From: a virus
IMG/VR virus record: IMGVR_UViG_3300046009_011724
Location: 1 to 33,144 of that record
Length of the DNA: 33,144 nucleotides
Reading direction: 5' to 3' (one strand)
In this document: piece by piece, positions 2,676-26,501 of the stretch
Layout: each line of letters starts with the position of its first letter
Position numbering within the stretch: position 1 is the first letter of the stretch
Position numbers and translations under genes: made by a program
Notes under the pieces: model-generated
The model's input: only the letters and a program-made list of their open reading frames with translations
Database searches by the model: none
What the model was told of the DNA's origin: nothing

Positions 2676-2696
2676 GCAATTAACCTACTTCCTCCG

Positions 2697-2702
2697 TTGA
2701 CA
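2697..2702 (+). promoter_or_regulatory. TTGACA start-proximal motif
   Basis: TTGACA lies 16 nt before the ATG at 2719, with no Shine-Dalgarno sequence between. It is one of the recurrent start-associated copies. Confidence 0.5.
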
Positions 2703-2718
2703 CTGTCCAGTCCCTTCG

Positions 2719-3015
2719 ATGGCCGCCTATACCCGCGAACTAGCGCGGGCTGTTGCCCTGAACGAGCTCAAGCAAGCCTCCGGGGTCACGGCCTCGGCCA
2801 TTGTTGCCTTGGAATCCATGCGCGATTCCGCCATGTCCGGCGTCGATTCCGGGCGTGCCGTGGTGGGCAGCTCCGCCGGCGGCCAGTCCGCCAGCTTTCA
2901 AATCGACATGAAACCCACCGAGCGCGTCACCTTGTTCCAGGCCGCGATTGATTTCCTGCAAGGCAACCGCGTCAGCCGCACCGTCGGCTCTTTCACCAAC
3001 ATCTATGACGCCTAA
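2719..3015 (+). CDS. Head-tail connector, gpW-like position
   Basis: This 98-residue protein lies between the large terminase and portal, exactly where lambda W lies between A and B. It is helical at the N-terminus (ELARAVALNELKQAS) with a Ser/Gly-rich middle, and its C-terminal part (TLFQAAIDFLQGNRV) could form a final helix. gpW stabilises filled heads and gives the tail a docking site. The gene has no Shine-Dalgarno but carries the TTGACA motif 16 nt upstream. Its last 11 nt overlap the portal start. The assignment rests mostly on position and size, because sequence similarity in this family is weak. Confidence 0.5.
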   Translation: MAAYTRELARAVALNELKQASGVTASAIVALESMRDSAMSGVDSGRAVVGSSAGGQSASFQIDMKPTERVTLFQAAIDFLQGNRVSRTVGSFTNIYDA

Positions 3016-4630
3016 GCCCGTCTCCTTGGTTCAGCGGATCGGTGCCGGCGTCAAGGCGTTTGCCGCCGGCTACGGCTCCGGCATCGCCACGTTTCAGCCG
3101 TATGAGGGCGCCGGCTTTTCCCGCAAGCGGCCCATCATCTACGGCGCCCACGCCCGCGACTCCCGCATTGACCTGACCGAATCCACCCGGACCGAGCTCC
3201 TCAAGCTCGCCCGCCACATGTACCGCAACATCGGCCTCGTCAAGGGAGCCGTTGATTCCATCGCCGCCTACTCCATCGGCCCAGGCCTGCGCCCGCAGTA
3301 CCGCGGAGCCGACCAGGAGTTCGGCCAGCTGGCCGAGGCGTACTGGCGCGATGTGATTGCCCCAGCCCCCGAGGTCACCGGCCGCATGACCTGGACGGAT
3401 CTGCTGATGGCGCTTTCCCGCTCCATCGACGTGGACGGAGACGTCTTTGTCGTCCTGACCGATTCCGGAAAACTGCAGGTTGTCGAAGGCCATCGAGTCT
3501 GCGAGGGCGACGACTACGGCACCAGCGACGGCGTCTTCCTCGGCAAGCTCGGCGAGCCCACCGCCTACCTGATCGAGACCAACGACCAGTACCGCAAGAT
3601 CCCCGCCGAGCTCGTCGTCCACCTCATGGAGCTGGAGCGGCCCGACCAGATCCGTGGAGCCTCCGCCTTGGCTCGCGCCCTTAACCACCTGCGCGATCTA
3701 AAGCTGGTTACCGAATTTGAAAAGGACGCCCTCAAGGTTCAGTCCTCCATCGCCGCAGTCATCGTCAGTCAGGATGGCGACCCCCTTGCCAACACAGGTG
3801 GATTTTTTGGAAAGATTCAGGAGCGGGACAGCAGCAACGACGTGGCGCGCGAGGAGATCACCAGCTCCGCCAACATCCCGCGCCTGGCCCCCGGCGAAAA
3901 GATTGAGAACCTTTCCCCCACCCGCCCCGGCACCAACTTTGAAAACTTTGCCAAGTTCCTCATCCGCGACATCGCCCTGGGGCTGAATTTGCCGCCTGAG
4001 TTCGTCTACGATCCAGCTTCTGTCGGCGGGGCCGGCATGCGGTTTGTGGTCGCCAAAGCCCAGCGCCGTTTTGAGCAGCGCCAACGTCTGCTTATCGACC
4101 GCTTCTGCGCCCGCGCCTGGCGTTACTTCATCGCCCGCGCCATCGCCGCCGGCGATCTGCCCGAGGTGGCGGACTACGACCGCGTCTCCTGGCAGACGCC
4201 CAAGAGCCTCACCGTAGACGCCGGACGCGAGGCCATGCAGGCCCGCGAGGACTACAAGGCCGGCCTCTCCACGTTGGCCGATTACTTTGGAGAGCTTGGC
4301 CTCGATTGGCAGGAGCAGATCGAGCAGATGGACCGGGAAAAGAAATTTATCGCCAGCCTGAATCCACCATCCACCGCGCCGGCTGCCGAGGCAACGCCCG
4401 AACAAGCGGCTGTTTTGGACCCCGTGCAGACGCCCGCCGCTCCCGAGGAGCTCGCCGCCTCCGTCACCGAATCCACCGCCATGCAGGCGCAGGTGGAAAT
4501 CATCCCGCCCCAGACCGAAGCCTTCACCATGAAGGACGAGCCGGACTTTACCCTTTCCGAAAAAGAGGCCGACATGGTGGCCAAAGCCATCGGCCTGAAA
4601 AACAGACCCGCCAAAAAGAAGAAGGCGTAG
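3005..4630 (+). CDS. Portal protein, lambda B type
   Basis: This 541-residue protein forms the dodecameric ring through which DNA enters and leaves the head. The segments around SRIDLTESTRTELLKLARHM and YRNIGLVKGAVDSIAAYSIG are typical of lambda-type portals, as is the later LNLPPEFVYDP. The C-terminus is Ala/Pro/Glu-rich and ends in a Lys-rich tail (RPAKKKKA). The ATG at 3005 is chosen because it gives a short overlap with the connector gene. An in-frame upstream start would add about 19 residues without the expected character. The order terminase, connector, portal, protease-scaffold matches lambda A-W-B-C. Confidence 0.9.
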   Translation: MTPKPVSLVQRIGAGVKAFAAGYGSGIATFQPYEGAGFSRKRPIIYGAHARDSRIDLTESTRTELLKLARHMYRNIGLVKGAVDSIAAYSIGPGLRPQYRGADQEFGQLAEAYWRDVIAPAPEVTGRMTWTDLLMALSRSIDVDGDVFVVLTDSGKLQVVEGHRVCEGDDYGTSDGVFLGKLGEPTAYLIETNDQYRKIPAELVVHLMELERPDQIRGASALARALNHLRDLKLVTEFEKDALKVQSSIAAVIVSQDGDPLANTGGFFGKIQERDSSNDVAREEITSSANIPRLAPGEKIENLSPTRPGTNFENFAKFLIRDIALGLNLPPEFVYDPASVGGAGMRFVVAKAQRRFEQRQRLLIDRFCARAWRYFIARAIAAGDLPEVADYDRVSWQTPKSLTVDAGREAMQAREDYKAGLSTLADYFGELGLDWQEQIEQMDREKKFIASLNPPSTAPAAEATPEQAAVLDPVQTPAAPEELAASVTESTAMQAQVEIIPPQTEAFTMKDEPDFTLSEKEADMVAKAIGLKNRPAKKKKA

Positions 4631-4636
4631 TTGACG
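4631..4636 (+). promoter_or_regulatory. TTGACG start-proximal motif (variant)
   Basis: This one-mismatch copy of the TTGACA motif lies directly after the portal stop and 13 nt before the ATG at 4650. That start has no Shine-Dalgarno sequence. Confidence 0.4.
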
Positions 4637-4649
4637 CTGGGCGGCCCGT

Positions 4650-5534
4650 ATGGCCACCAAGCTCAAAAACGTCAGCATCCTCACGGCCGGCGAGGCCAAA
4701 GGTCACAACCTCTTAATCGACGAAACCAGCCTGCAGCAGGCCCTGGCCGTCGCCCAATCCATGGGCCGGATCAAGGTCACCAACGGGCACGGCGCCCAAC
4801 AGGTCATGGACATTCTGGGCTACGTCGAAAACTTCCGCATCGAGGGTAGCCGCCTGCTTGGCGACCTGACCTTGCTCAACAGCGAGAAGGCCGATTACGT
4901 CGCCAACCTCGCCGGGCTTATGCCCGACCAGTTCGGCCTCAGCCTCACCTTTAGCGGCGTGCCCGATGAAAGGGAAGGCCAGCGCTTTGCCCGGGTGACC
5001 GAGATCTACGACGTCTCCGTGGTGACCCAGCCCGCGGCCAATCCCGCCGGCATGTTCAGCGCCTTTGCCGCGCTGCCAGTTGACACCTTTGAAAAGGCCA
5101 TGACCGAAACCAAGGCCGAGAAAGTCGAACTGACCGCCGCCGCTCCGGTGGCCCAACCGGAACCCGAACCCACACCCGCGGCCTTGGCCGAGACGCTCGC
5201 TCCCGCCGCCCTGGCGGAAGCCCCGGTGGCGGAGGACAAAAAGGACGAGGAAAAGGAACCGACGATGCGCGATGTCGTCAACCTCCTCAACCAGCTCCTC
5301 GGCTACATGAAGGACGACAAGGAGGAGGACCTGACCGCCCCCGCCGTCGTCGAGGCCGCCGCCAAGACGGAGCTCACCACCCTTTCACGGATCGAGAAGG
5401 ACGCCGCCGGTGCGGCGCCCGTCCCGGCCCAACCCGCGGACAGCCGTCTGTCCCGCACCGAGATCCTCAACCAATTCAACCAGGAGAAGCACCCCGCCAA
5501 GCGCGTGGAGCTCCTCCGCAAGCTGGGCCTCTAA
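4650..5534 (+). CDS. Prohead protease fused to scaffold domain
   Basis: This 294-residue protein has two clear parts. Residues 1 to about 145 resemble a prohead maturation protease: NGH near residue 47 and GLSLTFSG near residue 100 could provide His and Ser of the active site. From about residue 150 the protein is Ala/Pro/Glu-rich and then helical and charged, as expected for scaffold (MRDVVNLLNQLLGYMKDD and the basic C-terminal helix RVELLRKLGL). This matches the lambda C/Nu3 arrangement. An in-frame ATG at 5100, with its own TTGACA copy, could give a separate scaffold. The protease assignment is by pattern and position. Confidence 0.75.
   Translation: MATKLKNVSILTAGEAKGHNLLIDETSLQQALAVAQSMGRIKVTNGHGAQQVMDILGYVENFRIEGSRLLGDLTLLNSEKADYVANLAGLMPDQFGLSLTFSGVPDEREGQRFARVTEIYDVSVVTQPAANPAGMFSAFAALPVDTFEKAMTETKAEKVELTAAAPVAQPEPEPTPAALAETLAPAALAEAPVAEDKKDEEKEPTMRDVVNLLNQLLGYMKDDKEEDLTAPAVVEAAAKTELTTLSRIEKDAAGAAPVPAQPADSRLSRTEILNQFNQEKHPAKRVELLRKLGL
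5080..5085 (+). promoter_or_regulatory. Internal TTGACA motif before scaffold start
   Basis: TTGACA lies inside the protease-scaffold gene, 14 nt before an in-frame ATG at 5100. The spacing equals that seen before whole genes, and the ATG falls at the boundary between protease and scaffold parts. Confidence 0.45.
5100..5534 (+). CDS. Predicted internal scaffold product (Nu3-like)
   Basis: A second, in-frame start at 5100 would produce the C-terminal 144 residues of the protease-scaffold protein on their own, beginning MTETKAEKVEL. In lambda, Nu3 is made from an internal start within gene C so that scaffold exceeds protease. Here the start is marked by TTGACA at 5080-5085 rather than by a Shine-Dalgarno. 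The product would lack the protease part and keep the Pro/Ala/Glu linker, the helical core and the basic C-terminal helix. This is a prediction from motif spacing and domain boundary. The later in-frame ATG at 5265 is a weaker alternative. Confidence 0.4.
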   Translation: MTETKAEKVELTAAAPVAQPEPEPTPAALAETLAPAALAEAPVAEDKKDEEKEPTMRDVVNLLNQLLGYMKDDKEEDLTAPAVVEAAAKTELTTLSRIEKDAAGAAPVPAQPADSRLSRTEILNQFNQEKHPAKRVELLRKLGL

Positions 5535-5552
5535 AGCCCAAAGGATACCACC

Positions 5553-6443
5553 ATGGCCAACACACTCGGAACCACTAACGCCAATGTGATCGCCCAGCGC
5601 GCGCTGGAGATCCTCGTGGCTGATTACAGCTTTTTGCGTGGCGCCGCCACGGACTTCTCGTCCGAGGCCGCCCGCTACAACGCCTACGTCTACACGCACC
5701 GCCTCTCGGCGCTGACGGCCACGGACTACTCCCAGGCCAACGGCTACGTCGCGGCCGCCGTGACACAGACGGATGTGGGCATCCAACTGGACAAGTTCAA
5801 GCACGTTTCCTACAGCGTGGACGATCAGGAACGGTCGACCAGCGAGATCAACCTGATCGAGCGTTTCGCCGGCGCCGCCGCGCACGCCCTCGGGCTGCAG
5901 ATGGTGGGCGACCTGCTCGCGCTCGTCACCTCCGCTTCGTTCACCAGCGCCATCACCGTCAGCTCCGCCTCGTTCAGCTACGCCTGGGCGGTCTCGGCTG
6001 GTGAGGTGCTCAACAACAACAAGACCCCGTCCAACGACCGCTACGCGGTTCTGGCGCCCAAGTACTTCGGCTCCCTGCTGAAGGACAGCAACGTGGTGGC
6101 CAACCCGCAGATCAGCGGCGACGCCGTCCGCAACGCCGGACTCGGCGCGGTGGCAGGGTTCAACATCAACATGTACCCCTCCATCCCCAGCAACAGCATC
6201 ACGCTCGGCGGCTTCTTTGCCCAGCGCGAGGCGCTGTTGATCGCCTCCCGCGTCCCCGATGTCCCTCAGGGCGTCGAGATTCCGGGCACGATCAGCAACG
6301 TCACCGAGCCCCGCACGGGCCTGACCGTGCAGAGCCGGGAGCACTACGACGTCCAAAAAGGCATCGTCCAGCGCACCCTGGCCCTGATCTACGGCGTGAA
6401 GGCAGGGGAGACCTCCAGCCTCGTTCGGATCAACGGCAGCTAA
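5553..6443 (+). CDS. Major capsid protein (HK97-fold, P22 coat-like)
   Basis: This 296-residue protein follows protease-scaffold and precedes a strong hairpin, the usual place for the most highly expressed head gene. It begins MANTLGTTNANVIAQRALE and has the pattern of P22-like coat proteins: an N-terminal helix, a beta-rich stretch (VGIQLDKFKHVSYSVDDQE) and a long central helix (ERFAGAAAHALGLQMVGDLL). A C-terminal section (REHYDVQKGIVQRTLALIYG) follows. An AAGGA-type ribosome site is present about 8 nt upstream of the ATG. The family is inferred from sequence pattern and gene order. Size and length suit an HK97-fold shell protein without a covalent cross-linking motif that I can identify. 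Confidence 0.85.
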   Translation: MANTLGTTNANVIAQRALEILVADYSFLRGAATDFSSEAARYNAYVYTHRLSALTATDYSQANGYVAAAVTQTDVGIQLDKFKHVSYSVDDQERSTSEINLIERFAGAAAHALGLQMVGDLLALVTSASFTSAITVSSASFSYAWAVSAGEVLNNNKTPSNDRYAVLAPKYFGSLLKDSNVVANPQISGDAVRNAGLGAVAGFNINMYPSIPSNSITLGGFFAQREALLIASRVPDVPQGVEIPGTISNVTEPRTGLTVQSREHYDVQKGIVQRTLALIYGVKAGETSSLVRINGS

Positions 6444-6454
6444 CCTCCTTGGTG

Positions 6455-6496
6455 GGGCGGCGGATTGAGCAATCAGTCCGCCGCCCTTCCTCTTTT
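6455..6496 (+). terminator. Hairpin after major capsid gene (GNRA loop)
   Basis: Positions 6455-6468 pair with 6473-6486 as an uninterrupted 14-bp stem (one U-G pair) closed by a GCAA tetraloop. Pyrimidine-rich sequence ending in TTTT follows. It is a good intrinsic terminator or mRNA 3'-stabilising hairpin that could raise capsid output over downstream genes. Confidence 0.75.
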
Positions 6497-6507
6497 GAGA
6501 TCCTCGC

Positions 6508-6807
6508 ATGTCTGAATTTACCGAGTGCCTGAAAGAAAGCCTCGCCGTCGCTTACGAGCAGTTCGGCACCAGCGCCACCTTTGGATCCACCGCCGTCACC
6601 GGCGTCCTTTCCACCATCACCCGCCGGGAGAATCTTGAGCTCCACGGCTACGATCTGGACTTAAACGCCTCCTTTACCGCCGACAAGTCCGTGATGGCCA
6701 CCGCGCCCACCATCGGCTCCACCGCCCGCATCAATTCCGTCACCTACCGCGTCATCAGCACCGACACCAACGCCGGCTGCTACGTCATCGGCCTGCGCGA
6801 GGGTTAG
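6508..6807 (+). CDS. Head completion / head-tail adaptor candidate
   Basis: This 99-residue protein lies directly after the capsid gene and its hairpin. The N-terminus (MSEFTECLKESLAVAYEQFG) is helical. The rest is beta-rich with many Thr/Ser/Val and ends GCYVIGLREG. Small proteins of this shape after the capsid gene in lambda-like phages are often head-tail joining factors (compare lambda FII). I do not recognise the family from sequence. It is separated by only 5 nt from the accessory glycosyltransferase gene, so it marks the left edge of the inserted cassette. Confidence 0.45.
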   Translation: MSEFTECLKESLAVAYEQFGTSATFGSTAVTGVLSTITRRENLELHGYDLDLNASFTADKSVMATAPTIGSTARINSVTYRVISTDTNAGCYVIGLREG

Positions 6808-6812
6808 GATCC

Positions 6813-8507
6813 ATGCCCCAAGATCCTAAAATCTCCATCTATCTGATTGCCGGCCGGGAGGCCAAGTATATCGGCCGCTGCCTGGATGCGTTTCAGCCCA
6901 TGGCCGATGAGATAGTTGTCTGCATGGCTCGCGGCGGTGCGCCTGATGACGGCACCGAGGAGATCGCAAAGGAGAAGGGCGCCACCATCGTCCACTATCA
7001 AAACGGCCACGGCAAAACCGATTGGCCCCACGTCGATCACTTTGCCGACGCCCGCAACACCGCCCTGGACGCTTGCACCGGGGACGTCGCCATGTGGGTG
7101 GACGCGGACGACCTACCCGCCCCCGGCCTGAAAAACGCCCTGCAAAACGCCGCCAAGGAGCTTTTGAAAAACGACAAGGCCGGCATCTGGGCCGCCGTCT
7201 ACAACGTGACCAATGCGAAGCTGACCCCGATCCGCGAGCGCCTGGTCAAACGCCTGCCCGGGGGCCGCTGGGCCGGCCGCTGGCACTACGCCGTGCACGA
7301 GGCGCTTTTGCCGTTGCCCGGCTACGAGGTGCGGGCCGAGCAGGCCAGCTGGGTGGAGCACCATCCGGAGGGCTACAAAGCAGGCTCTGCCGATCGCAAC
7401 ATCCGCATCCTGCAGGGGGAGCTGGGCGAGGCCGGCAAGTACGCCTACTACCTTCAGCAGGAGCTTTTCCTTTCCGGCAAGCGCGACCAGTCCGCCACCT
7501 GGTCCCACGTCTCCGCCCTGTGGCCCACCCAAGAGCCCACGCTCCGCTACGAGAGCTGGTGCAACTACGGCCAAGCCCTGCCGGACCGGGACCAGCGCAT
7601 GGCCGTTTTTGCCAGGGCCCACCAGTCCAGCCCGTCCCGCCGAGAGGCCCCGTTCTATATGGCTCGGGAAGAAGCCAGCGCCGGCAAGTGGGGCGCCGCC
7701 TACTACCTGCTCAAAAGCGCCATGGTGCTGCCCGATCCCGGCGTCACCCAATGGAACGCCCAGCGGGCCATCTATGATTTTGAGTGCATCGATCTCTACA
7801 TCGCCGCCGCCCGCGCCGTGGGCGACCACGCGGAGGCAGACAAGATTCAAAACCAATGGCGCAAGCTGAAGCCCGTCAAAATCTCCGTCTGCCACGCCAC
7901 CCGCGGCCGCCCGCAGGAGGCCATCAACGCCCGCATCCTTTGGATGAAAAAAGCGGCAGACCCGGCCAGCGTGGAGTGGATCTTCAGCTGCGACGATGAT
8001 GACCCCAAGGCCGATGTCCTCAAGGCATGGGCGCCGCTCAAGGGGAAGGGCGGCTGCATCGCCGCCTGGAACCGGGCGGCCGAGCAGGCCCAGGGAGAGA
8101 TCCTTGTGCAGGGATCCGATGACTGGGATCCGCCGCTCTGGTGGGACAAGATTATTTCCGAACGGATCGGGGACACCACCCGCGAAAGCGTGCTGGCCGT
8201 CAGCGATGGTCACCGCAAGGACCAGCTCCTCTGCATGGCCATCCTCACGCGCAACCGGCTCAAAAAACAAGGCCACTTGTTTGCGCCGGAGTACGACGCC
8301 GCCAGCGGCATTTATTCCGATAACGAGTTCACGTCCAGAGCCTACGCCGACAAGTGCGTCATCGAGGCACGCGACGTCGTCTTCACCCACAACAATCCCA
8401 TGTTCACAGGGCAGAAGGCGGACGAGGAGTTCCTTCGCCACAACTCCGCCACCCACTACGAGACCGGAAAAAAGATTTTTGAGGAGCGCAATCCGTCGGC
8501 TCAATGA
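6813..8507 (+). CDS. Two-domain GT-A glycosyltransferase
   Basis: This 564-residue protein appears to hold two glycosyltransferase (GT2-like) domains. Domain 1 (about 5-175) opens with KISIYLIAGREAKYIGRCLD and contains DEIVVC, then WVDADD near residue 95, a DxD metal/nucleotide-sugar motif. The middle (about 210-350) is helical and TPR-like. Domain 2 (about 352-550) restarts with KISVCHATRGRPQEAINAR and has acidic motifs CDDDD and GSDDWDPP. Both starts have the beta-strand plus R/N pattern of GT2 enzymes. It would transfer sugars from nucleotide donors to an unknown acceptor. It is the first of five coupled accessory genes; its stop overlaps the next start by ATGA. Confidence 0.75.
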   Translation: MPQDPKISIYLIAGREAKYIGRCLDAFQPMADEIVVCMARGGAPDDGTEEIAKEKGATIVHYQNGHGKTDWPHVDHFADARNTALDACTGDVAMWVDADDLPAPGLKNALQNAAKELLKNDKAGIWAAVYNVTNAKLTPIRERLVKRLPGGRWAGRWHYAVHEALLPLPGYEVRAEQASWVEHHPEGYKAGSADRNIRILQGELGEAGKYAYYLQQELFLSGKRDQSATWSHVSALWPTQEPTLRYESWCNYGQALPDRDQRMAVFARAHQSSPSRREAPFYMAREEASAGKWGAAYYLLKSAMVLPDPGVTQWNAQRAIYDFECIDLYIAAARAVGDHAEADKIQNQWRKLKPVKISVCHATRGRPQEAINARILWMKKAADPASVEWIFSCDDDDPKADVLKAWAPLKGKGGCIAAWNRAAEQAQGEILVQGSDDWDPPLWWDKIISERIGDTTRESVLAVSDGHRKDQLLCMAILTRNRLKKQGHLFAPEYDAASGIYSDNEFTSRAYADKCVIEARDVVFTHNNPMFTGQKADEEFLRHNSATHYETGKKIFEERNPSAQ

Positions 8508-9268
8508 TCCACACGCACAACGCCCTGCGGCTGGGCGACAACCTCGTTCAGCTAAACTTCCTGCGCCGCGCCTGCCTGGCTGACCCGGCTCTGGAGGTGA
8601 CCCACTATCACAACCCCCAGCTCTGCCGGTTTGAGGAGATCGACGCCCTGCGGTCCGATATCTCCACACGCCTCCGAATCCGGCCCATCGAGGAGGCCCA
8701 GCCAGGCAGTATCGACAGCTGGCGCAACGCCGGTGGCTGGTGGGAGCGTCACCCGGACCGGCTGAACTTCGCCAAGTTTCATCTGGCTTGGTTCAACGAG
8801 CTGGCCGGCCGGATGGGGATCTCCAACCCGATGCGCACCGTGGATGACTTGCTATTTGATTATCCCACGCTGGACAGCTTCATCCCCATGGCGCCGGAGT
8901 GCGACGTGCTGGTAATCAACTCGCCCGGCCTGTCCGGCCAGTTTCTGAACTACAACCCGGAAGACTTTCGCGACCTTATCGCCCGGCTGGTGCTCAAGGG
9001 TCACCGCGTCCACAGCACCGCGCCCACCGGGCTGTGTCCGCATTTTGAAAACAGGAACGTAACTTTCATCGGCGCGGCATCGGTCAAGGCCAAGGTCATC
9101 GTGGGCACCAGCACCGGCCCCAGCTGGCCGTGCCTAAACGTCCACAACCGGGCCAAGCCCATCATCCTCTGCGCCGATCACGAGCAGGTGCTCCTCACGC
9201 CCGCCAGCCGGATGGCCCGCAGCGTCCACCACGCCATCCACCTTCTGGCCAAGGACGGCTGGCTGTGA
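8504..9268 (+). CDS. GT9/heptosyltransferase-like glycosyltransferase
   Basis: This 254-residue protein resembles GT-B enzymes of the ADP-heptose transferase type. The N-terminal LGDNLVQLNFLRRAC matches the G-D-x-x-x-x-x-x-x-L-R motif that opens GT9 proteins. The C-terminal half has CDVLVINSPGLSGQ and then VIVGTSTGPSWPCLN, which sits where GT9 enzymes place the nucleotide-sugar site. At 254 residues it is shorter than typical heptosyltransferases (about 320-350). It overlaps the preceding glycosyltransferase by ATGA and the next gene by GTGA, so the cassette is translationally coupled. The donor and acceptor cannot be read from the sequence. Confidence 0.65.
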   Translation: MIHTHNALRLGDNLVQLNFLRRACLADPALEVTHYHNPQLCRFEEIDALRSDISTRLRIRPIEEAQPGSIDSWRNAGGWWERHPDRLNFAKFHLAWFNELAGRMGISNPMRTVDDLLFDYPTLDSFIPMAPECDVLVINSPGLSGQFLNYNPEDFRDLIARLVLKGHRVHSTAPTGLCPHFENRNVTFIGAASVKAKVIVGTSTGPSWPCLNVHNRAKPIILCADHEQVLLTPASRMARSVHHAIHLLAKDGWL

Positions 9269-9795
9269 GCGCGTACAGGGAACAGCTCACCCTGGCCATG
9301 GACAATCTGGCCGCCGACAAGGCCGTCCGCTTCATCGGCTACGGCGTGAAGATCGGCGGCCGGGCCCTGGGCACGCTGAAAAACGTGCCGGAGGATCGGC
9401 TGATCGAAACGCCCGTGGCGGAAAACCTGATGGTCGGGCTGGCCACCGGCATGTCGCTGGCCGGCCTGCGGCCGCTCGTCTTCATCGAGCGGATGGATTT
9501 TATCCTCAACGCGCTGGACGCCATCGTGAACCATCTTGGCGCGGCCAGGAAAATCAGCCGCGGGCAGTTCCAGCCCGCCGCCATCCTGCGCGTCGTCGTC
9601 GGCAACCGGCACAAGCCTCTCTACACCGGGCCCACCCACGTGCAGGACTTCACCGAGGCCATCCGGCAGATGGTGGATTTCCCGGTGGTGCGCCTAACCG
9701 GGCCAGAGCAAATCGCGCCCGCTTACTTTGAGGCCCACGAGGCCCTGCACTGCGGCCGCAGCACCATGCTCGTCGAGCACAAGGACATGATCTGA
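9265..9795 (+). CDS. E1-beta / transketolase Pyr-domain protein
   Basis: This 176-residue protein matches the pyrimidine-binding domain of TPP enzymes of the 2-oxoacid dehydrogenase E1-beta/transketolase group. The core run is RLIETPVAENLMVGLATGMS then AGLRPLVFIERMDFILNALD. In E1-beta enzymes the Glu of TPxxE (E53 here) contacts the TPP aminopyrimidine. The ending with GPTHVQDF and VVRLTGPEQ also follows the family. The C-terminal domain (about 120 residues) of normal E1-beta is absent. The GTG at 9265 is chosen because it overlaps the previous stop (GTGA); sequence before it only mirrors the upstream gene. It probably pairs with the protein at 10883. Confidence 0.8.
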   Translation: MSAYREQLTLAMDNLAADKAVRFIGYGVKIGGRALGTLKNVPEDRLIETPVAENLMVGLATGMSLAGLRPLVFIERMDFILNALDAIVNHLGAARKISRGQFQPAAILRVVVGNRHKPLYTGPTHVQDFTEAIRQMVDFPVVRLTGPEQIAPAYFEAHEALHCGRSTMLVEHKDMI

Positions 9796-10886
9796 TGCGC
9801 CAGAACAAGTACAGCGACTACAAGATTTTCAGCTTTCCGGAGAAGGTGGAGAGTTTCCGCACCCGCACGCTTACCGCGCCCGTCTACGTCCGCATCAAGC
9901 CCACCAACCGCTGCAACCACGCCTGCCGCTTTTGCACTTATTCCGACGGCACCACCCGCCCCAAGGACCGGCCGGACCTTCACCTGCAGTCCGCCATGCA
10001 CACCGAGATGAAGGAGCAGGACGTCATGCCCACGTGGAAACTCTTGGAGCTGATGGACGATTTGCGCGAGATGAACGTCCGGGCCGTCACGTTTTCCGGG
10101 GGAGGGGAGCCGCTGTTTCATCCGGCCATCTGCCCGGCCATGACTTCCACCCTGTCCTCCGGCATTGATCTTTCCATCATCACCAACGGCCAGCTGCTGA
10201 CCGGCGAGCGGGCCGAAATTCTTACCCGCGCCAAATGGGTACGCGTGTCCATCGATTACACCAGCGCGGAGCAGATGCACCAGAGCCGGGCCGTGCCGCC
10301 CGCCAGCTTTGAGGCCGTGCTGAAAAACATGCGGCAGTTTGCCTCCGCCAAGACCGCCACGTGCGACTTGGGCGTCAATTTCATCGTCACCCGCTACAAC
10401 TACGAGGGCCTCACCCCGTTTGCCAAAACGCTCAAAGAATGCGGCGTGGAGAATGTGCGCTTCTCGCCCGTCTACGTGCAGGGCTTTAAGGATTATCACA
10501 AGGGCATCGCCGTGCGCGTGCGCGAACAGCTGGCCGAATGCCAGGCGCTGGTGGACGACACCTTTTCCGTCAACAGCACCTACGATCTGGACAGCCCCGG
10601 CAAGAGCCCCGTTCGGCCCTTTCACCGCTGCCTGTACGCCCAAGCTGTCTGCGTGGCCGCAGCCGATCTGAACATCTATGCCTGCCACAACACCGCCTAC
10701 AGCGCCCACGGCCGGATCGCCTCGTTCCAGGACCAGTCATTCCGCCAGGCGTGGTTCAGCCCGGAGGCGCGGGAGTGGCACGCCAAGTTCAACCCCGGCG
10801 TGGCCTGCCTGCACGAATGCGCCAATCACAACAAGGTGGCGCTGTTTGAAAGCCTGGCGTCCGACAGCCACGACGCCTTTGTATGA
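9795..10886 (+). CDS. Radical SAM enzyme with SPASM-like C-terminus
   Basis: This 363-residue protein has the 4Fe-4S cluster motif C40-x3-C44-x2-C47 (RCNHACRFC), which binds S-adenosylmethionine to make a 5'-deoxyadenosyl radical. The SAM-binding FSGGGEPLFH follows at about 100-109. Beyond the barrel are further Cys residues (C279, C286, C297, C338, C342) in a pattern like a SPASM or twitch auxiliary-cluster region. Such enzymes carry out peptide modification, dehydrogenation or epimerisation. The gene sits between the two E1-like subunits with 1-nt and 4-nt overlaps, so all three products are probably made together. The substrate is unknown. Confidence 0.88.
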   Translation: MRQNKYSDYKIFSFPEKVESFRTRTLTAPVYVRIKPTNRCNHACRFCTYSDGTTRPKDRPDLHLQSAMHTEMKEQDVMPTWKLLELMDDLREMNVRAVTFSGGGEPLFHPAICPAMTSTLSSGIDLSIITNGQLLTGERAEILTRAKWVRVSIDYTSAEQMHQSRAVPPASFEAVLKNMRQFASAKTATCDLGVNFIVTRYNYEGLTPFAKTLKECGVENVRFSPVYVQGFKDYHKGIAVRVREQLAECQALVDDTFSVNSTYDLDSPGKSPVRPFHRCLYAQAVCVAAADLNIYACHNTAYSAHGRIASFQDQSFRQAWFSPEAREWHAKFNPGVACLHECANHNKVALFESLASDSHDAFV

Positions 10887-11512
10887 CCGCCCACGACCTT
10901 ATCAGCTTTGAGCTGCGGATCCGCCGCCTATTCAGGGAGGGGAAGCTGCCCTACCTGATCCACCTTTGCGGCGGCAACGAGGTGCAGCTCATCCGGCTGT
11001 TTGCCGAAATCCGCCGGGGAGACTGGGTTTTCTCCACCCACCGGTCCCATTACCACTATCTCCTCCACGGCGGGGATCCGGACACTCTGGAGCAGATGAT
11101 TTGCGAGGGGCGCAGCATGTTTGTCTTTGACCACCGGCTGAATTTCTACAGCTCCAGCGTGCTGGCCGGCACCTGCGGCATCGCCGCCGGGGTGGCCCAC
11201 CGCATCCAGGAGGCCGGCGAGGCCCGCCATGTCTGGTGTTTTGTGGGCGATGGGGCCGAGGACGAGGGCCACTTCTACGAGGCCGTGAACTACGTGGACG
11301 GTAAGGGCCTGCCCTGCACGTTTGTGATTGAGGACAACGACCGCAGCGTGGACACCACCAAAGCCCAGCGGGGCAGGGGACGCATCGGCTGGCCGCCCTG
11401 CGTGCGCCGGTATCATTACGTGCCGGAATACCCCCACGGGGGTGCCGGCCTGAAGGAGATGGTCACCTTTGATCCCTCCATCCGTCCCGTGTGGGATGAC
11501 ATAGCCCGATAA
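10883..11512 (+). CDS. E1-alpha-like TPP-binding subunit
   Basis: This 209-residue protein matches the PP domain of E1-alpha (2-oxoacid dehydrogenase) enzymes. GDGAEDEGHFYEAVNYV starts at residue 122, and EDN at 150-152 closes the Mg-TPP motif that is usually GDG...NN. Before it, SSVLAGTCGIAAGVAHRI parallels the helix preceding the TPP site, and THRSHYHYLLHGG parallels the region around the E1-alpha active-site His. Normal E1-alpha proteins are about 320-400 residues, so this is a trimmed form. It probably forms a heteromer with the Pyr-domain protein at 9265. Which keto acid or ketose it cleaves is not evident. Confidence 0.8.
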   Translation: MTAHDLISFELRIRRLFREGKLPYLIHLCGGNEVQLIRLFAEIRRGDWVFSTHRSHYHYLLHGGDPDTLEQMICEGRSMFVFDHRLNFYSSSVLAGTCGIAAGVAHRIQEAGEARHVWCFVGDGAEDEGHFYEAVNYVDGKGLPCTFVIEDNDRSVDTTKAQRGRGRIGWPPCVRRYHYVPEYPHGGAGLKEMVTFDPSIRPVWDDIAR

Positions 11513-11516
11513 GCCA

Positions 11517-11963
11517 ATGGCCGCCGTCACCATGCTGGATCGTCTGATTGAGGCAGGGCTCAAGGAGCTGCTGTCCGGAGCCGTGACGGGCGTCACCTAT
11601 CACTTGTCCCAGGAGACCATTGAAAAGGATCCGCCCTTTCTGGCCATCCGCGCCACCGTGGCCGCCGAGGTGCCCCGGCCAGGCTCCGGCGTTTTTGAGC
11701 TGCCCGTGGAAATCGTGCTGGCCGAGCGGGCCGACGACACCACCGCCCAGGCGTTCAACACCAAGGCCGCCCAGCTTCTGCAGGCTTTCTATCACGATAC
11801 CTCCACCGTCTCCCGGCTAAACGCCACCACCGCCATCGGTGCCGCCCGCGCCTACCGCTGCGACGTCACCGGCAGCGAGAGCGGCGTGGACGGGGACGAA
11901 AGGCTTTTCACCCGCACCCTGTCCCTGACGGTCATCGCCTATCCCAATTCCACCGGGAGTTGA
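11517..11963 (+). CDS. Tail completion/terminator-like protein
   Basis: This 148-residue protein resumes the structural operon after the accessory cassette. It begins with a helix (MLDRLIEAGLKELLSGAV) followed by alternating beta strands and a central helix (AQAFNTKAAQLLQAFYHD), and it ends in a beta section (TLSLTVIAYP). That layout and the position just before the tail tube gene fit tail terminator or tail completion proteins such as lambda U. The family is not certain from the sequence. It starts 4 nt after the cassette's last stop, so the cassette and tail genes are probably on one transcript. Confidence 0.5.
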   Translation: MAAVTMLDRLIEAGLKELLSGAVTGVTYHLSQETIEKDPPFLAIRATVAAEVPRPGSGVFELPVEIVLAERADDTTAQAFNTKAAQLLQAFYHDTSTVSRLNATTAIGAARAYRCDVTGSESGVDGDERLFTRTLSLTVIAYPNSTGS

Positions 11964-11965
11964 CA
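11960..11965 (+). promoter_or_regulatory. TTGACA start-proximal motif
   Basis: TTGACA overlaps the stop of the tail-completion gene and lies 14 nt before the ATG at 11980. The start has no Shine-Dalgarno sequence. Confidence 0.5.
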
Positions 11966-11979
11966 CTTTTTGGACTGGC

Positions 11980-12327
11980 ATGCCCGCAACCACCATCGGC
12001 CAGACAGGGCTCTCTTTCGGTTTAACCGCGGAGAGCGGAATGCTCGTCCAATCCTTTTCGGAAACCCGCAATGTTGAAAAAGCGGAAGTCCGCAACGCCA
12101 CCGGCGACGTGGTCGGCCTGGCTCTCTACAACCAGACCGATTCGCTTTCCTTCAGCGGAACCATCACCGGCACCTACAGCACCACGGCCGGAGCCGTGCT
12201 GGCCACCCTGGCCAACGCCACCAGCACCGGCGGAAAGATTGTCGTGGATTCCGTGGCCTTCAGCCGTTCCCCGGACGCCTTTGTCACGGTGGACGTGTCC
12301 GCCACCCGCTACCCGAACATGTCCTAA
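11980..12327 (+). CDS. Major tail tube protein candidate
   Basis: This 115-residue, Thr/Ser/Gly/Val-rich beta protein lies between tail completion and chaperone genes, the normal place of the tube gene. It has ESGMLVQSFSETRNVEKAEV, which matches the early strands of small tube proteins, and later LSFSGTITGTYSTTAGAVL. It is shorter than most tube proteins (about 140-250), so it would be a minimal form. The start uses the TTGACA motif. A 6-bp GC hairpin follows the stop. An alternative is a minor tail protein, but no other tube candidate is present in the window. Confidence 0.6.
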   Translation: MPATTIGQTGLSFGLTAESGMLVQSFSETRNVEKAEVRNATGDVVGLALYNQTDSLSFSGTITGTYSTTAGAVLATLANATSTGGKIVVDSVAFSRSPDAFVTVDVSATRYPNMS

Positions 12328-12329
12328 AG

Positions 12330-12346
12330 GGCCGCGCCCTGCGGCC
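12330..12346 (+). other. Short GC hairpin after tail tube gene
   Basis: GGCCGC (12330-12335) pairs with GCGGCC (12341-12346) around a 5-nt loop, 3 nt after the tube gene stop. No T-run follows, so it is more likely an mRNA-stabilising hairpin or chance than a terminator. Confidence 0.3.
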
Positions 12347-12362
12347 TCCATGAGATCCTAAC

Positions 12363-12734
12363 ATGTTCGACAGCTTCTGGGGCACCACCAACCTGAAGAC
12401 CGCCGCCATGGCTCCCAATGACGGGGCCGTACTGCGTCCCTACGATCCCGTCACCTGCACCGTCAGCGAGGACGGCCGCCGCCAGTACACTTTCTGGTTT
12501 TCCGGGGGAGGGGAGACCGTACGGGCCGAGATGCAGCGCACCTGGACCGAGATGCAGTGCGATCCGGAAAGCTGGATCCGCTACGCCCGCGCCGCCCTGG
12601 AGAACCGCGAAACCCTGCTGGGACTGATGAAGCGGGCCGAGCCCATCACCGTCATCCAGCGCGGGGGACAGACCCTGCTGGTGCCCGAGCGCGCCAAGCC
12701 CGAGATCAAAAAAGCCCTGCTCCACAAGCTATGA
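12363..12734 (+). CDS. Tail assembly protein, unknown family
   Basis: This 123-residue protein lies between the tube gene and the putative chaperone. The first half is mixed (FWGTTNLKTAAMAPNDGAV) with a beta stretch around RRQYTFWFSGGGE. The second half is helical (ESWIRYARAALENRETLLG and a basic C-terminal helix ending KKALLHKL). I do not recognise the family. Its placement and helical C-terminus suggest a tail assembly or chaperone role. The start lacks a good Shine-Dalgarno; a GAGATCCT precedes it, as it also does the gene at 6508. Its stop overlaps the next gene by ATGA. Confidence 0.55.
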   Translation: MFDSFWGTTNLKTAAMAPNDGAVLRPYDPVTCTVSEDGRRQYTFWFSGGGETVRAEMQRTWTEMQCDPESWIRYARAALENRETLLGLMKRAEPITVIQRGGQTLLVPERAKPEIKKALLHKL

Positions 12735-13120
12735 GCCAGGAACAGGATTACAGCGCGGAGCTGGACGCGGTCTTTGTCGCCGACGAGCGGCTGTGGCAGG
12801 GCCAAAAAATCGCGCCTTATACCGAGGGATCGCGCCTCCTGCTCAGCCAGGTGCGGTCCGAAAACGACAGCCCGCTGTTCTTTGTCTACAGCTTTCTGTT
12901 TTTGCACCTGGAGCTGGCGAGGGATCGGCGCGCCGCCATCCGGCTGGCCTGGGACCGCGACGCCTTCCGCGAGGCCGTGCTGAATTTCTCCGACAAGTTT
13001 TGCGAGGAGGACCGCCAGCAGGCCGGTGCCATTGTCGCCGCCATGGTGGACCAGGCGTCCAAGGCCCGCACGGAGCCCGTGCCCTCCGGCAAGGCCGGAC
13101 CGCCCGGCCCAAAAGCGTGA
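12731..13120 (+). CDS. Tail assembly chaperone (G-like)
   Basis: This 129-residue, mainly helical protein sits between tube and tape measure genes, the position of lambda G. It contains LFFVYSFLFLHLELARDRRA and a charged central helix, and it ends in a Pro/Gly-rich tail. The last codons include the slippery heptamer CCCAAAA (13108-13114) in the correct phase for a -1 shift into the following ORF, giving a predicted 196-residue fusion like lambda gpGT. The start is the ATG at 12731, which overlaps the previous stop; longer upstream readings only mirror that gene. The chaperone call rests on position, helicity and the frameshift signal. Confidence 0.65.
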   Translation: MSQEQDYSAELDAVFVADERLWQGQKIAPYTEGSRLLLSQVRSENDSPLFFVYSFLFLHLELARDRRAAIRLAWDRDAFREAVLNFSDKFCEEDRQQAGAIVAAMVDQASKARTEPVPSGKAGPPGPKA

Positions 13121-17804: not shown

Positions 17805-18105
17805 GCGCCGGGTCCTCCGGGCCCCATTTCCCAATCGGGCATTTTTCGTGCGGCAGGCGCAGCTTGGCGCCCGAGCAGCCGCACTTCAGGCACCGGCCCC
17901 GCCCGCCGAACGCCTCCGCCTTCCAGTGCTCACACGCCTGGCAGATGGTCCGGCGCGCCTCCAGCGTCTCCGGGTGTACCACCGCAAAGCCTTCCCGCGC
18001 CCAGCGGAATCCGCTGGCCGCCGCCGTCCGGATCATCCGGGCCAGCGGGGGAGGAGATCCCGCGCGGCGGGCGGCCACCCGGGCCCGCCACTGTTCCAAC
18101 GTCAC
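17773..18105 (-). CDS. Zinc-ribbon-like small protein
   Basis: This 110-residue reverse-strand protein has an N-terminal helix (VTLEQWRARVAARRA) and a C-terminal half with four closely placed Cys (ICQACEHW and CLKCGCSG), followed by KLRLPHEKCPIGKWG. This CxxC...CxxCxC...CPxGKW pattern is common in short phage proteins of unknown function near tail genes and probably binds zinc or iron. Its GTG overlaps the stop of the upstream reverse gene (GTGA), so the two form an operon. The 3' end overlaps the forward gene ending at 17804. The role is unknown. Confidence 0.7.
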   Translation of the reverse strand: MTLEQWRARVAARRAGSPPPLARMIRTAAASGFRWAREGFAVVHPETLEARRTICQACEHWKAEAFGGRGRCLKCGCSGAKLRLPHEKCPIGKWGPEDPAPTAGRDPGAG

Positions 18106-19112
18106 ACCACCGCCCCCAGCGTGATCTCCACCGTGGCCTGAAAAAAAACATCCAAGGAGTAGTCCGAGGTGGCAAAATAACATCCGGCGGGGGAGGCGTT
18201 GGATTCGGTGTAATTGGTTTGGCTGCGGGAATAATACCACCAGGTGGGCGGTAGGCAGCACTGGGCCGCATTGCCGCCGTAGTAGTTCTTGGCCGTGATC
18301 GTTTCGTTGTAGATCGTGCCGCCATCCGCGCTTCGCACGATAATGGTAAGAGTGGCGGTCGCGTCTCCGGTGTCGGCCGGAGTTTCTGAATTTTGCAGGG
18401 GATTGCCCGCATCGTAGGGATTGTCCGTCACGGTGCCCGTGCATTCGTTCACGCAGGCTTGCTCCGCCTCGGAAACACAGTCGCTGGGCAAAAACTGCGG
18501 CACCCCGCGGTACACGCGGAACTGTGTGTCGCATCCCGGCGTGGTCGTCTGGCAGCGCATCTGCAGCTGCAGAGCCGGGAACGCGGAACTTCCCCAGGAG
18601 ACGGTCACCGCCGTGTTGCTGCTGGTGGCGGTGCAGGGATCGTCCGGAATGGGCGGCGAGGCGCACATGTCCCCGATGCCGGGGCAACCCGTGTCCGTCT
18701 GCGCCCGCGTGCCGGTGAAGGTTCCCCAGATCGAAATCAGCCCCGCCGTGGTGACCGAGGCCGTCACGCTCGTCAGCGTGGTGTCATAATCGTCGGTCAG
18801 GGTGTTGACCCCGTCAAAGCACGGGCCCAAGACCACGCAGGAATCAATCACCGAGGTGATGGCCAGCGTGTAGGAGCCGGTGGCCGAAATGGCCGTCACC
18901 GCCAGCCGGGCCGGGCAGTCGTCGCCTTCTTTTAGAAGGGAACAGGCGCGGTTTTCCTGCACCGCCACCGCCGTGGTGTTCACCTCATGGCTGATGTTGA
19001 GCAGGTTATCCTCACAGGGGACGGAGACGACGTTGATGCTCACCGCCGTCATCTGGTCCGGGCTGCCACAGCCGCAGCACGTTCCGGCCGGCAGGCCCAG
19101 TGTGTAACCCAT
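18102..19112 (-). CDS. Cys-rich secreted or adhesin-like protein
   Basis: This 336-residue reverse-strand protein is rich in Cys and Thr/Ser/Asn. It opens MGYTLGLPAGTCCGCGSPD, then shows many spaced Cys (VVSVPCEDNLL, ENRACSLL, GDMCASPPIP, CVSEAEQACVNECTG, QCCLPPTWWYYS). The beta-strand-like body suggests a disulfide- or metal-stabilised fibre or adhesin. No signal peptide is evident, so surface location would be through the virion. The ATG at 19112 is preferred over one further upstream because TTGACA lies 15 nt before it, matching the genome's motif. The partner gene (110 residues) follows by GTGA. The function is inferred only from composition and tail context. Confidence 0.65.
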   Translation of the reverse strand: MGYTLGLPAGTCCGCGSPDQMTAVSINVVSVPCEDNLLNISHEVNTTAVAVQENRACSLLKEGDDCPARLAVTAISATGSYTLAITSVIDSCVVLGPCFDGVNTLTDDYDTTLTSVTASVTTAGLISIWGTFTGTRAQTDTGCPGIGDMCASPPIPDDPCTATSSNTAVTVSWGSSAFPALQLQMRCQTTTPGCDTQFRVYRGVPQFLPSDCVSEAEQACVNECTGTVTDNPYDAGNPLQNSETPADTGDATATLTIIVRSADGGTIYNETITAKNYYGGNAAQCCLPPTWWYYSRSQTNYTESNASPAGCYFATSDYSLDVFFQATVEITLGAVV

Positions 19113-19127
19113 TGCCGCAGAGACGCG

Positions 19128-19133
19128 TGTCAA
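19128..19133 (-). promoter_or_regulatory. TTGACA start-proximal motif, reverse strand
   Basis: On the reverse strand TTGACA lies 15 nt before the ATG at 19112, the same spacing as on the forward strand. It decides the start of the Cys-rich gene. Confidence 0.5.
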
Positions 19134-19147
19134 GGAGTGCGGGGGAA

Positions 19148-19153
19148 TTGACA
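19148..19153 (+). promoter_or_regulatory. TTGACA start-proximal motif
   Basis: TTGACA lies 14 nt before the GTG at 19168. It is 14 nt from the reverse-strand copy, back to back in a 55-nt divergent intergenic region. Confidence 0.5.
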
Positions 19154-19167
19154 CTGCCCACCGCTCC

Positions 19168-24748: not shown

Positions 24749-24958
24749 TTATCTCTTAATTTTTGCCCGTGACGGACCTTTGGCAAATATGGCAGGGCTC
24801 TCCTTGGTAAAACCCTGCTCTCGGGCTGCCTCCTTAATTAACAGCTGGGTGATGAAGACGCTTAAAGACATGCCGGAGCGGTCGGCCAGATCCATGGCTT
24901 TCTTTTTGACCTCGCTGGGCAGGTAGACGTTGGTCCGCTCCTTTTTCACGACACACAT
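24749..24958 (-). CDS. RHH (Arc/CopG-like) regulator, leftward
   Basis: This 69-residue protein on the reverse strand has a clear ribbon-helix-helix fold: the strand ERTNVYLPSEV, then helix 1 KKKAMDLADRSGM and helix 2 LSVFITQLLIKEAARE, followed by a basic tail (PSRAKIKR). RHH proteins bind operators as dimers. It is a paralogue of the forward RHH gene at 25061 (shared TN-YLP-EVKK and AD...S-T-LI pattern). The two are divergent with a 102-nt intergenic region that has a palindrome. No CI-type repressor is present in the window, so one of the pair is a good candidate lysogeny regulator. Confidence 0.8.
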   Translation of the reverse strand: MCVVKKERTNVYLPSEVKKKAMDLADRSGMSLSVFITQLLIKEAAREQGFTKESPAIFAKGPSRAKIKR

Positions 24959-25226: not shown

Positions 25227-25586
25227 ATGAGCGTGGGGGCTTTTAACGGTGACGGTGCCAGGGAAAACGGGATGCCCCCGCGCGCGCATGAAAAGCGCAC
25301 GCTAAACCAGCCGCTTAACTTGCGGGAATTGTCGGAGGCGTACGGGATAACGTACCACCGGGCCCGCTCCCTGTCCTTTGAAGCCGGTTTTCCGATGGTG
25401 CGTGGGCTGGTGTTTCCGCGGGCGTTTGAGGATTGGATGTCGGCAGGCCCGCGTTCACGTAGTTGCGCAAGTCCTCAACAGAGTGGCGCTGATACAGGTC
25501 GTGAACCAAGGTCGAGGAATGGTTTACGAGTCTCATGGCAACAGCTTGCACAATCCCTGCCCTTCGCAGGTTCGTCACTCGGGTAG
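25227..25586 (+). CDS. Excisionase-like HTH protein
   Basis: This 119-residue protein has a MerR/Xis-like HTH in its N-terminal half: LNLRELSEAYGITYHRARSL then FEAGFPMVRGLVFPRAFEDW (about 31-72). The C-terminal 45 residues have no domain character and lie on the strand opposite the integrase gene's 3' end, so the true functional part is probably the first 75 residues. Excisionases bend attachment-site DNA and direct the integrase to excise. Position next to integrase and the regulator supports this. The antisense overlap with the integrase is 272 bp. Confidence 0.6.
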   Translation: MSVGAFNGDGARENGMPPRAHEKRTLNQPLNLRELSEAYGITYHRARSLSFEAGFPMVRGLVFPRAFEDWMSAGPRSRSCASPQQSGADTGREPRSRNGLRVSWQQLAQSLPFAGSSLG

Positions 25587-26460
25587 CGCGCAGGCCATGG
25601 AAACTATGATGTTTAAGCCCCACCAGATTAAAGAAGCGGCGCCAGTAGCAGGAGACCTTGGTGCCGGCTCCAGGCCACTCGAAGGTGTGGGAGCGCGGCG
25701 TGGCTTTCAGCTTGCGGAACAGGGGAAGCAAGCCGTCGGGAATGGGGATGGTGTAGGCGCAGCCGGATCCTCCCTTGGGCTCGGGGAACGTCATGGTGCC
25801 GGCCTCCAGGTCGATGCAGGACAAGGGCAGTCGGGTCTCCTTCATCCGGCAGCCGGTGTGGTAGGCGATCTCGAAGCTGGTGCGCATCCAGTCGGGGATG
25901 TAGCGGCTGGCCAGCGCCTCCCGGCAGCGGGCGACATGCTCCTCGGTAAAGACCGGCTTGCGGGTGACCGGGCTTTTGCGGGAACGGAAATCCACCATGG
26001 CCATGCTGGTCATGTGACCCAGCAGCCGGCCGTTTCGGTGGATCCATTTAAGGATCTTAATGTCCTGCAGGGCTTGGTTGCGGCCGACGAAGCCGCCCCC
26101 GGTGCGGGGCGTGGCCGTGCGCCAGGCGATGTAGTCGTGGGCCGTGGCCGGGGCAAAGTCTTCAAGGGCCACTCGGCGTTCGCACATGAAGCGGATCAGG
26201 TTTCGCCAGCTGTTGCGGTAGTAGATCCGGGTGTTGTCGCCGACGGGGTGGGTTTCGATAAGGCGATCCACCCAGGTGAGATCTTTGCTTCGCTTGTCCT
26301 GCTCGTGGACGGAAAGGTCGGCGGCTTCTTGCCGGGCCTTGGCGCGGTGCAGCGTGTTGTCCGTCCGGTAGCGCGTGGCCTTGGACCTGAGCTTTCTGTC
26401 CTTGGTTTTGTACCTGATCCAATACCAAGGACTGTCGGATCTTTTGTAAATGTAGGCCAC
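25315..26460 (-). CDS. Tyrosine integrase
   Basis: This 381-residue protein starts at a GTG and reads VAYIYKRSDSPWYWIRYKT, a usual integrase N-terminus. The core-binding domain spans about 62-165, and the catalytic domain has R205 (HTGCRMKE), K229, H288 and R291 (HGLR), H314 (VNHSS) and Y323 (LVHDLYQRH). All expected catalytic residues are present. The reading further upstream (Met at 26517) has no integrase character, so 26460 is chosen. The last about 40 residues are Pro/Thr-rich and antisense to the excisionase-like gene. Integrase transcription runs away from attP. Confidence 0.92.
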   Translation of the reverse strand: MAYIYKRSDSPWYWIRYKTKDRKLRSKATRYRTDNTLHRAKARQEAADLSVHEQDKRSKDLTWVDRLIETHPVGDNTRIYYRNSWRNLIRFMCERRVALEDFAPATAHDYIAWRTATPRTGGGFVGRNQALQDIKILKWIHRNGRLLGHMTSMAMVDFRSRKSPVTRKPVFTEEHVARCREALASRYIPDWMRTSFEIAYHTGCRMKETRLPLSCIDLEAGTMTFPEPKGGSGCAYTIPIPDGLLPLFRKLKATPRSHTFEWPGAGTKVSCYWRRFFNLVGLKHHSFHGLRATRVTNLRRAGIVQAVAMRLVNHSSTLVHDLYQRHSVEDLRNYVNAGLPTSNPQTPAETPAHAPSENRLQRTGSGPGGTLSRTPPTIPAS

Positions 26461-26501
26461 GTAATCATCGTAACCAATCACCCAAAAACAGAAAGAAAAT
26501 A

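Follow-up and report, generated by a model that had tools for sequence, protein, structure and literature searches.

We identified a five-gene cassette at positions 6813-11512 of the IMG/VR virus record IMGVR_UViG_3300046009_011724 (the window, here, is the whole stretch of 33,144 nucleotides (nt) that was analysed). The genes encode two glycosyltransferases (GTs; GT2x2 and B), a radical SAM protein (RSAM) and the two parts of an E1-type thiamine diphosphate (ThDP) enzyme, which we refer to as PP and Pyr and, together, as mini-E1. The kit probably oxidizes a sugar, adds two carbons and attaches the product to a glycan. With a probability of roughly 0.55, we favor the fuller reading that a group of siphophage-like viruses has an exchangeable glycan-decoration slot in the late (virion) operon and that the cassette is one of its versions, in which oxidation is followed by ligation of a two-carbon (C2) unit and the resulting glycan coats the virion.

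Exchange of enzymes within the slot and among related modules

Our set of 140 distinct mini-E1 loci, mostly from phages, was drawn from four viral scans, named phages and one genome scan. The oxidoreductase near PP is RSAM in 69 of these loci and a Zn-alcohol dehydrogenase (Zn-ADH) in 66. No locus has both, and five have neither, three of these at contig ends. By gene content, the two oxidoreductases are exclusive alternatives. Loci L086, L088 and L090, with divergent radical SAM proteins that are ~21-25% identical to that of the window, were counted as RSAM type, and the exclusion result is unchanged by this. Most of the oxidoreductase genes (125 of 135) are at most 150 nt from PP or Pyr, and the Zn-ADH proteins keep the GHE (65/66) and GxGxxG (66/66) motifs.

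The tree of PP requires at least two changes of oxidoreductase type. Fused PP-Pyr with Zn-ADH falls on one side, and a large RSAM group encloses a further Zn-ADH clade (L063-L074). The Zn-ADH gene of this clade lies between B-Pyr and PP, which is the place of the RSAM gene in the window (B-PYR-[ZADH]-PP vs B-PYR-[RSAM]-PP). Beside the fused form, the gene order is SDR-RSAM-[PP-PYR] in a DPANN archaeon (L241) and SDR-ZADH-[PP-PYR] in cyanophages (SDR, short-chain dehydrogenase/reductase). The exchange of RSAM and Zn-ADH implies the same net reaction, conversion of an alcohol to a carbonyl. A stricter rule, that the PP-Pyr fusion always occurs with Zn-ADH, holds for viral loci that have an oxidoreductase and was rejected because it is broken by the archaeal fusion.

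The ThDP enzyme is also exchanged. Scanning with the capsid protein recovered sister phages (76-100% identity), in which 66 distinct slots are complete and bounded by the same pair of flanking genes. All 66 begin with GT2x2. The genes that come next are B-PYR-RSAM-PP in 47 slots and B, a split transketolase, a methyltransferase and RSAM in four; the other 15 hold methyltransferase cassettes, one form of which has a DUF5672 protein, together with a different small GT-like gene. Among distinct RSAM genes (at least 35% identity), all 95 have a ThDP enzyme nearby, either mini-E1 (90) or a split transketolase (5), and the coupling is obligate in the loci compared. Enzymes proposed to add C2 units to preformed keto sugars are, besides YerE, split E1-alpha/beta enzymes and split-gene transketolases (PMC12247030, PMC4425429, PMC4753412). 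Both of these classes occur beside the same RSAM in the same slot, which is the strongest argument for oxidation and then C2 ligation. The repeated RSAM/Zn-ADH and E1/transketolase exchanges amount to a natural experiment from which the reactions can be predicted. A carbon-branched sugar was part of the original prediction, made from the letters of the window; the two exchanges lend it strong, though indirect, support.

Alternative cassettes in the same slot of sister phages (L272, 8886-10859; L281, 9323-10620; L283, 3001-4151) contain a DUF5672 protein, differing class I methyltransferases and a protein of 221-222 amino acids (aa) with an LGD motif. The latter, with its N-terminal LGD and no family match, is possibly another minimal GT. 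A relationship to B of GT9b, a 221-aa protein of methyltransferase-type slots, was unsupported (hhalign probability 2.4%); an N-terminal LGD is common to both. With several alternative cassettes available to one slot, virion glycans may differ among sister phages much as serotype loci do among bacteria.

An IMG/VR scan with PP found 95 relatives. All five genes, in unchanged order, are present in 53 distinct loci, 50 of them fully intact and three cut by contig ends only, and we therefore reject chance assembly of the genes. The ratio of nonsynonymous to synonymous substitution rates (0.04-0.23 for the cassette genes) is mostly below that of the capsid gene in the same relatives (0.20-0.31), and by this measure the cassette is under purifying selection. 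The idea of a shared pathway had been tied in the original prediction to co-occurrence of the five families elsewhere and to intact genes in most relatives. Neither condition spoke against it: the families are found together widely, and the genes show intact reading frames and sequence constraint.

Enzymes of the cassette and their proposed reactions

The proposed route has four steps. GT2x2 and B would assemble or transfer a glycan. RSAM would turn a sugar hydroxyl into a carbonyl, the step of Zn-ADH in related modules (judging from exchange and fold), and PP and Pyr with ThDP would move an acyl-anion C2 unit onto this carbonyl (judging from family and exchange). The C2 donor would be pyruvate for the E1 type and a hydroxy-keto donor for the transketolase type, and the product would be a C-branched or chain-extended sugar. 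Given the position of the genes, the decorated glycan would most likely coat the phage's own structural proteins.

Pfam searches agree with the GT-A, Pyr, radical SAM and PP assignments that had been made before any database was searched (Table 1). In GT2x2, PHROG 13126 covers residues 5-353 and PHROG 14945 covers residues 355-529. B has no match in the Pfam search of window proteins, Glyco_transf_9 included. Its AlphaFold model (pLDDT 95.4) resembles the GT9 heptosyltransferases WaaC (Z 14.3 across 235/254 residues) and TibC (Z 13.2), which bears out the earlier description of this enzyme as GT9-like. B is modelled with a GT-B fold like that of WaaC. The LGD motif at D12 is invariant in the B alignment, and in WaaC the catalytic Asp lies within the equivalent GD motif.

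RSAM has a CxxxCxxC motif (C40, C44, C47) that is invariant in the alignment, as are Cys 279, 297, 338 and 342. The C-terminal region with these four cysteines is twitch-like. In BtrN, a radical SAM alcohol dehydrogenase with a twitch domain, the auxiliary cluster is held by four cysteines (PMC9012708). Fold comparison of the RSAM model gave DesII (Z 25.1), SkfB (24.9), BlsE (23.6) and BtrN (16.5). A sequence search of the PDB found BlsE and DesII, and a profile search added MoaA and BtrN. A second, distinct radical SAM protein adjoins the module in L063 (5437-6222), L053 (7265-8005) and L088 (6626-7486), which suggests an extra sugar modification.

PP and Pyr are predicted to form a minimal two-subunit ThDP enzyme of the E1 alpha/beta type. 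PP keeps the GDG and N152 of the ThDP/Mg motif (N152 in at least 90% of alignment rows), and its best solved relative is pyruvate dehydrogenase E1-alpha (1ni4, 5e-20). In Pyr, E53 and H125 are invariant in the alignment, and the profile search found pyruvate dehydrogenase E1-beta structures (best 1ik6, 2.5e-16). Domain searches of the two subunits gave Transket_pyr and E1_dh types only, and the beta C-terminal domain (transketolase_C) was not found. We rejected a Pyr start at 9130 (a longer mechanical open reading frame (ORF)) in favor of the GTG at 9265, which gives a 4-nt overlap with B. PHROG 34187 covers PP and Pyr as a 405-aa fusion, the form found in cyanophages.

The annotation "transketolase central region" in cyanophages would fit ordinary auxiliary metabolism, with the E1-like pair boosting host pyruvate or carbon metabolism. 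However, an oxidoreductase nearly always adjoins the pair, and GTs often do, and we regard this role as highly improbable. In its canonical form it was rejected, as no E2/lipoyl partner was recognized in the window and methyltransferases replace the pair at the slot.

Setting of the cassette and proposed target of the glycan

The cassette occupies 4,700 nt, 14.2% of the window (about 14% in the original prediction), and consists of five intact overlapping ORFs. The junctions are ATGA (GT2x2/B), GTGA (B/Pyr), TGATG (Pyr/RSAM) and ATGA (RSAM/PP), with overlaps of 4, 4, 1 and 4 nt, in agreement with the earlier description of the genes as overlapping by 1-4 nt. The gap before the cassette is 5 nt and that after it 4 nt, which leaves little space for a separate cassette promoter, and the arrangement reads as that of an operon. 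In the window annotation, the terminase, portal and capsid genes are upstream of the cassette.

Judged by position, the cassette does lie between genes for head completion and tail completion, as had been described. The upstream gene has a sub-threshold match (Table 1), and Pfam and PHROG searches gave no functional family match for the downstream gene.

Table 1. Genes of the cassette and its surroundings, with the evidence for each assignment.
Feature	Position	Strand	Evidence
Major capsid protein	5553..6443	+	PHROG 283 major head protein, 3.4e-30; query for sister phages
g7, upstream boundary of slot; probable head-tail attachment gene	6508..6807	+	Phage_attach, E 0.0032, sub-threshold; kept before slot in sister phages
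GT2x2, two-domain GT-A glycosyltransferase, 564 aa	6813..8507	+	Pfam Glycos_transf_2, 4.4e-14
B, minimal GT9-fold glycosyltransferase, 254 aa	8504..9268	+	AlphaFold model, fold comparison, alignment
PYR, E1-beta-type pyrimidine-binding domain, 176 aa, GTG start	9265..9795	+	Transket_pyr, 1.2e-8; PHROG 34187
RSAM, radical SAM enzyme, 363 aa; proposed sugar-alcohol dehydrogenase	9795..10886	+	Radical_SAM, 3.9e-17
PP, E1-alpha-type diphosphate-binding domain, 209 aa	10883..11512	+	E1_dh, 1.6e-15; PHROG 34187
g13, downstream boundary of slot; probable tail-completion gene	11517..11963	+	Position only; kept after slot whatever the cassette

The position in the late operon favors the virion as the target, and we consider this more likely than the host envelope. 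Alternatively, the same chemistry could serve lysogenic conversion or the exclusion of superinfecting phages by remodelling the envelope (lipopolysaccharide (LPS) or capsule). With a tyrosine-type integrase at 25315-26517 (- strand), the phage could be temperate, and cyanophage homologues lie within LPS-like clusters. Envelope remodelling nevertheless seems somewhat unlikely for a cassette embedded among late structural genes with gaps of 4-5 nt. In unrelated phages the module also follows the capsid gene (L063/L070/L074) or lies beside the terminase (L068/L076), and GTs of mycobacteriophage structural operons are reported to glycosylate the capsid and tail tube (PMC11600133).

The substrate may be a heptose-like sugar. 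In the DPANN archaeon L241 (329-kb contig, 2677-13044), the mini-E1 fusion, RSAM and an SDR lie beside a PfkB-SIS fusion, a cytidylyltransferase, an epimerase and a GT9 protein. These neighbours apparently represent a nucleoside diphosphate-heptose pathway with a heptosyltransferase. The same kinds of genes are found in cyanophages. The GT9 fold of B and the heptose-gene neighbours of the homologues make a heptose-like sugar a reasonable lead. The linkage of homologues to a PfkB/HldE-like kinase, SIS isomerase, cytidylyltransferase, epimerase and GT9 would also fit a different role for the ThDP pair, that of a small transketolase-like enzyme producing an unusual ketose or heptose precursor as the substrate of the oxidoreductase, with no branching on a finished sugar. 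The split transketolase in place of the E1 pair in four slots is consistent with this. However, the cassette of the window has no kinase, isomerase or nucleotidyltransferase for activation of such a product, and mini-E1 is of the E1 alpha/beta sequence type (2-oxo-acid donor), not transketolase. We think a precursor-forming role unlikely.

Several observations weigh against oxidation, C2 ligation and coating of the virion. The module adjoins recombination genes in L069/L072, and cyanophage modules are in polysaccharide clusters; with modules outside the structural operon in some phages, virion targeting is therefore not general. L144 and L152 have neither oxidoreductase and do not look truncated. 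PP and Pyr are without the C-terminal regions that AviB/Pau-type subunits have, and we know of no E1-type carboligase as small as this pair. RSAM resembles SPASM/twitch enzymes of differing reactions (thioether formation by SkfB, decarboxylation by BlsE, deamination by DesII), and BtrN itself ranks lower as a fold match. With a deaminase, a decarboxylase and a maturase of ribosomally synthesized and post-translationally modified peptides among its nearest folds, RSAM could be an epimerase, decarboxylase, deaminase or peptide maturase that partners the ThDP enzyme by happenstance. The clean interchange of RSAM and a Zn-ADH family with intact GHE and GxGxxG motifs points rather to the same net reaction, alcohol oxidation, and we judge such another function quite improbable.

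Related modules are found in other settings. At L069/L072/L211-type loci the module lies beside RecE/RecT/RusA-like recombination genes, where genes for glycosylating the virion would not be expected; L069 also has a DNA methylase gene between PP and Pyr. In the podovirus ctQWt234 (MW202801; L085, 9998-14661), which is unrelated, a cassette one gene past the capsid gene forms a counterpart to the decoration slot. It encodes a radical SAM protein only distantly similar to RSAM (23% identity), a GT, a PhyH-like dioxygenase, a methyltransferase, a NodB-like protein and another GT. One scan of genome contigs found five close relatives (four contigs of metagenome-assembled genomes and one Prochlorococcus contig) and two weak matches. 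Mini-E1 is rare in sampled cellular genomes: it was found in 1/395 Thermodesulfobacteriota and 6/279 Nanobdellota, where matches scored at least 219 bits and ordinary E1-alpha at most 102 bits. At L241, the phage-type module is part of a glycan cluster of an archaeon.

Elsewhere in the window, a small protein that looks ribbon-helix-helix-like (24749-24958, - strand) adjoins the integrase. A 350-aa Cys-rich ORF (18102-19154, - strand) lies on the opposite strand amid presumed tail genes. The sign of the GC skew flips at ~22-23 kb, as would fit a change from one gene module to another. The nearest relative of the terminase is that of Akkermansia phage Moulinsart, at just 30.5% identity, which is too low for naming a host.

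Comparison with known systems

We tentatively propose a form of phage sugar chemistry in which C-C bonds are made by a radical SAM or Zn dehydrogenase with a minimal two-subunit ThDP carboligase that is interchangeable with a split transketolase, giving C2-branched or chain-extended virion sugars from a slot at which close relatives exchange entire cassettes and so their glycotype. If true, viruses would have a route of their own to carbon-branched sugars, via an unusually small two-subunit E1-type ThDP enzyme. To our knowledge, C-branched sugar chemistry has been proposed only for bacterial polysaccharides and antibiotics so far. Our literature searches found no description of phage-encoded ThDP/radical SAM glycan cassettes, and there is a substantial chance that this viral chemistry has had no earlier description.

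Parts of the module were already deposited, without explanation, in the cyanophages S-SM2 and P-TIM68. These encode a fused PP-Pyr beside a Zn-ADH, sugar kinase, epimerase and nucleotidyltransferase (PMC3037559). They differ from the window in having Zn-ADH in place of RSAM, and the ThDP gene was annotated merely as transketolase-like, its function undiscussed (PMC3037559). Cluster O mycobacteriophages have cassettes of GT and methyltransferase genes within the structural operon, as in the phages studied here, but as described these are without a ThDP or radical SAM enzyme (PMC4351075, PMC11600133).

BtrN, of butirosin biosynthesis, shares with RSAM a radical SAM core and four C-terminal cysteines, and we propose the same alcohol-to-ketone oxidation for RSAM. 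In aminoglycoside pathways, a Zn/NAD dehydrogenase carries out the step equivalent to that of BtrN. The overall fold of RSAM is, however, nearer to DesII and BlsE, enzymes of nucleotide-linked sugars that are among its best structural and PDB sequence matches. Their identity to RSAM is 15-22%, and the reactions that they catalyze differ from the proposed oxidation.

Oxidation and then C2 ligation has been proposed for the sugars of avilamycin, paulomycin and miharamycin (PMC12247030, PMC4425429). The alphaKADH2 pairs that form C2 branches on keto sugars are AviB1/AviB2 (avilamycin), Pau11/Pau12 (paulomycin) and KbDH-alpha/beta (kibdelomycin) (PMC12247030, PMC4425429). Like these, the phage pair is a split E1-alpha/E1-beta-type ThDP enzyme encoded beside GTs, and it would need a sugar carbonyl to be formed first; it keeps the ThDP/Mg motif and catalytic Glu and matches pyruvate dehydrogenase E1 profiles. 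Unlike these, its subunits are only 209 + 176 aa (vs ~325 + 345 aa in Pau11/Pau12), without the beta C-terminal domain. It is also virus-encoded and has an adjacent dedicated radical SAM protein or Zn-ADH. The split-gene transketolases of miharamycin and amipurimycin belong to a proposed oxidoreductase-then-transketolase route to a branched sugar (PMC12247030), and a split transketolase adjoins the same RSAM in sister phages. The phages differ in two respects: one slot accommodates either class of ThDP enzyme, and the role of oxidoreductase would fall to a radical SAM protein.

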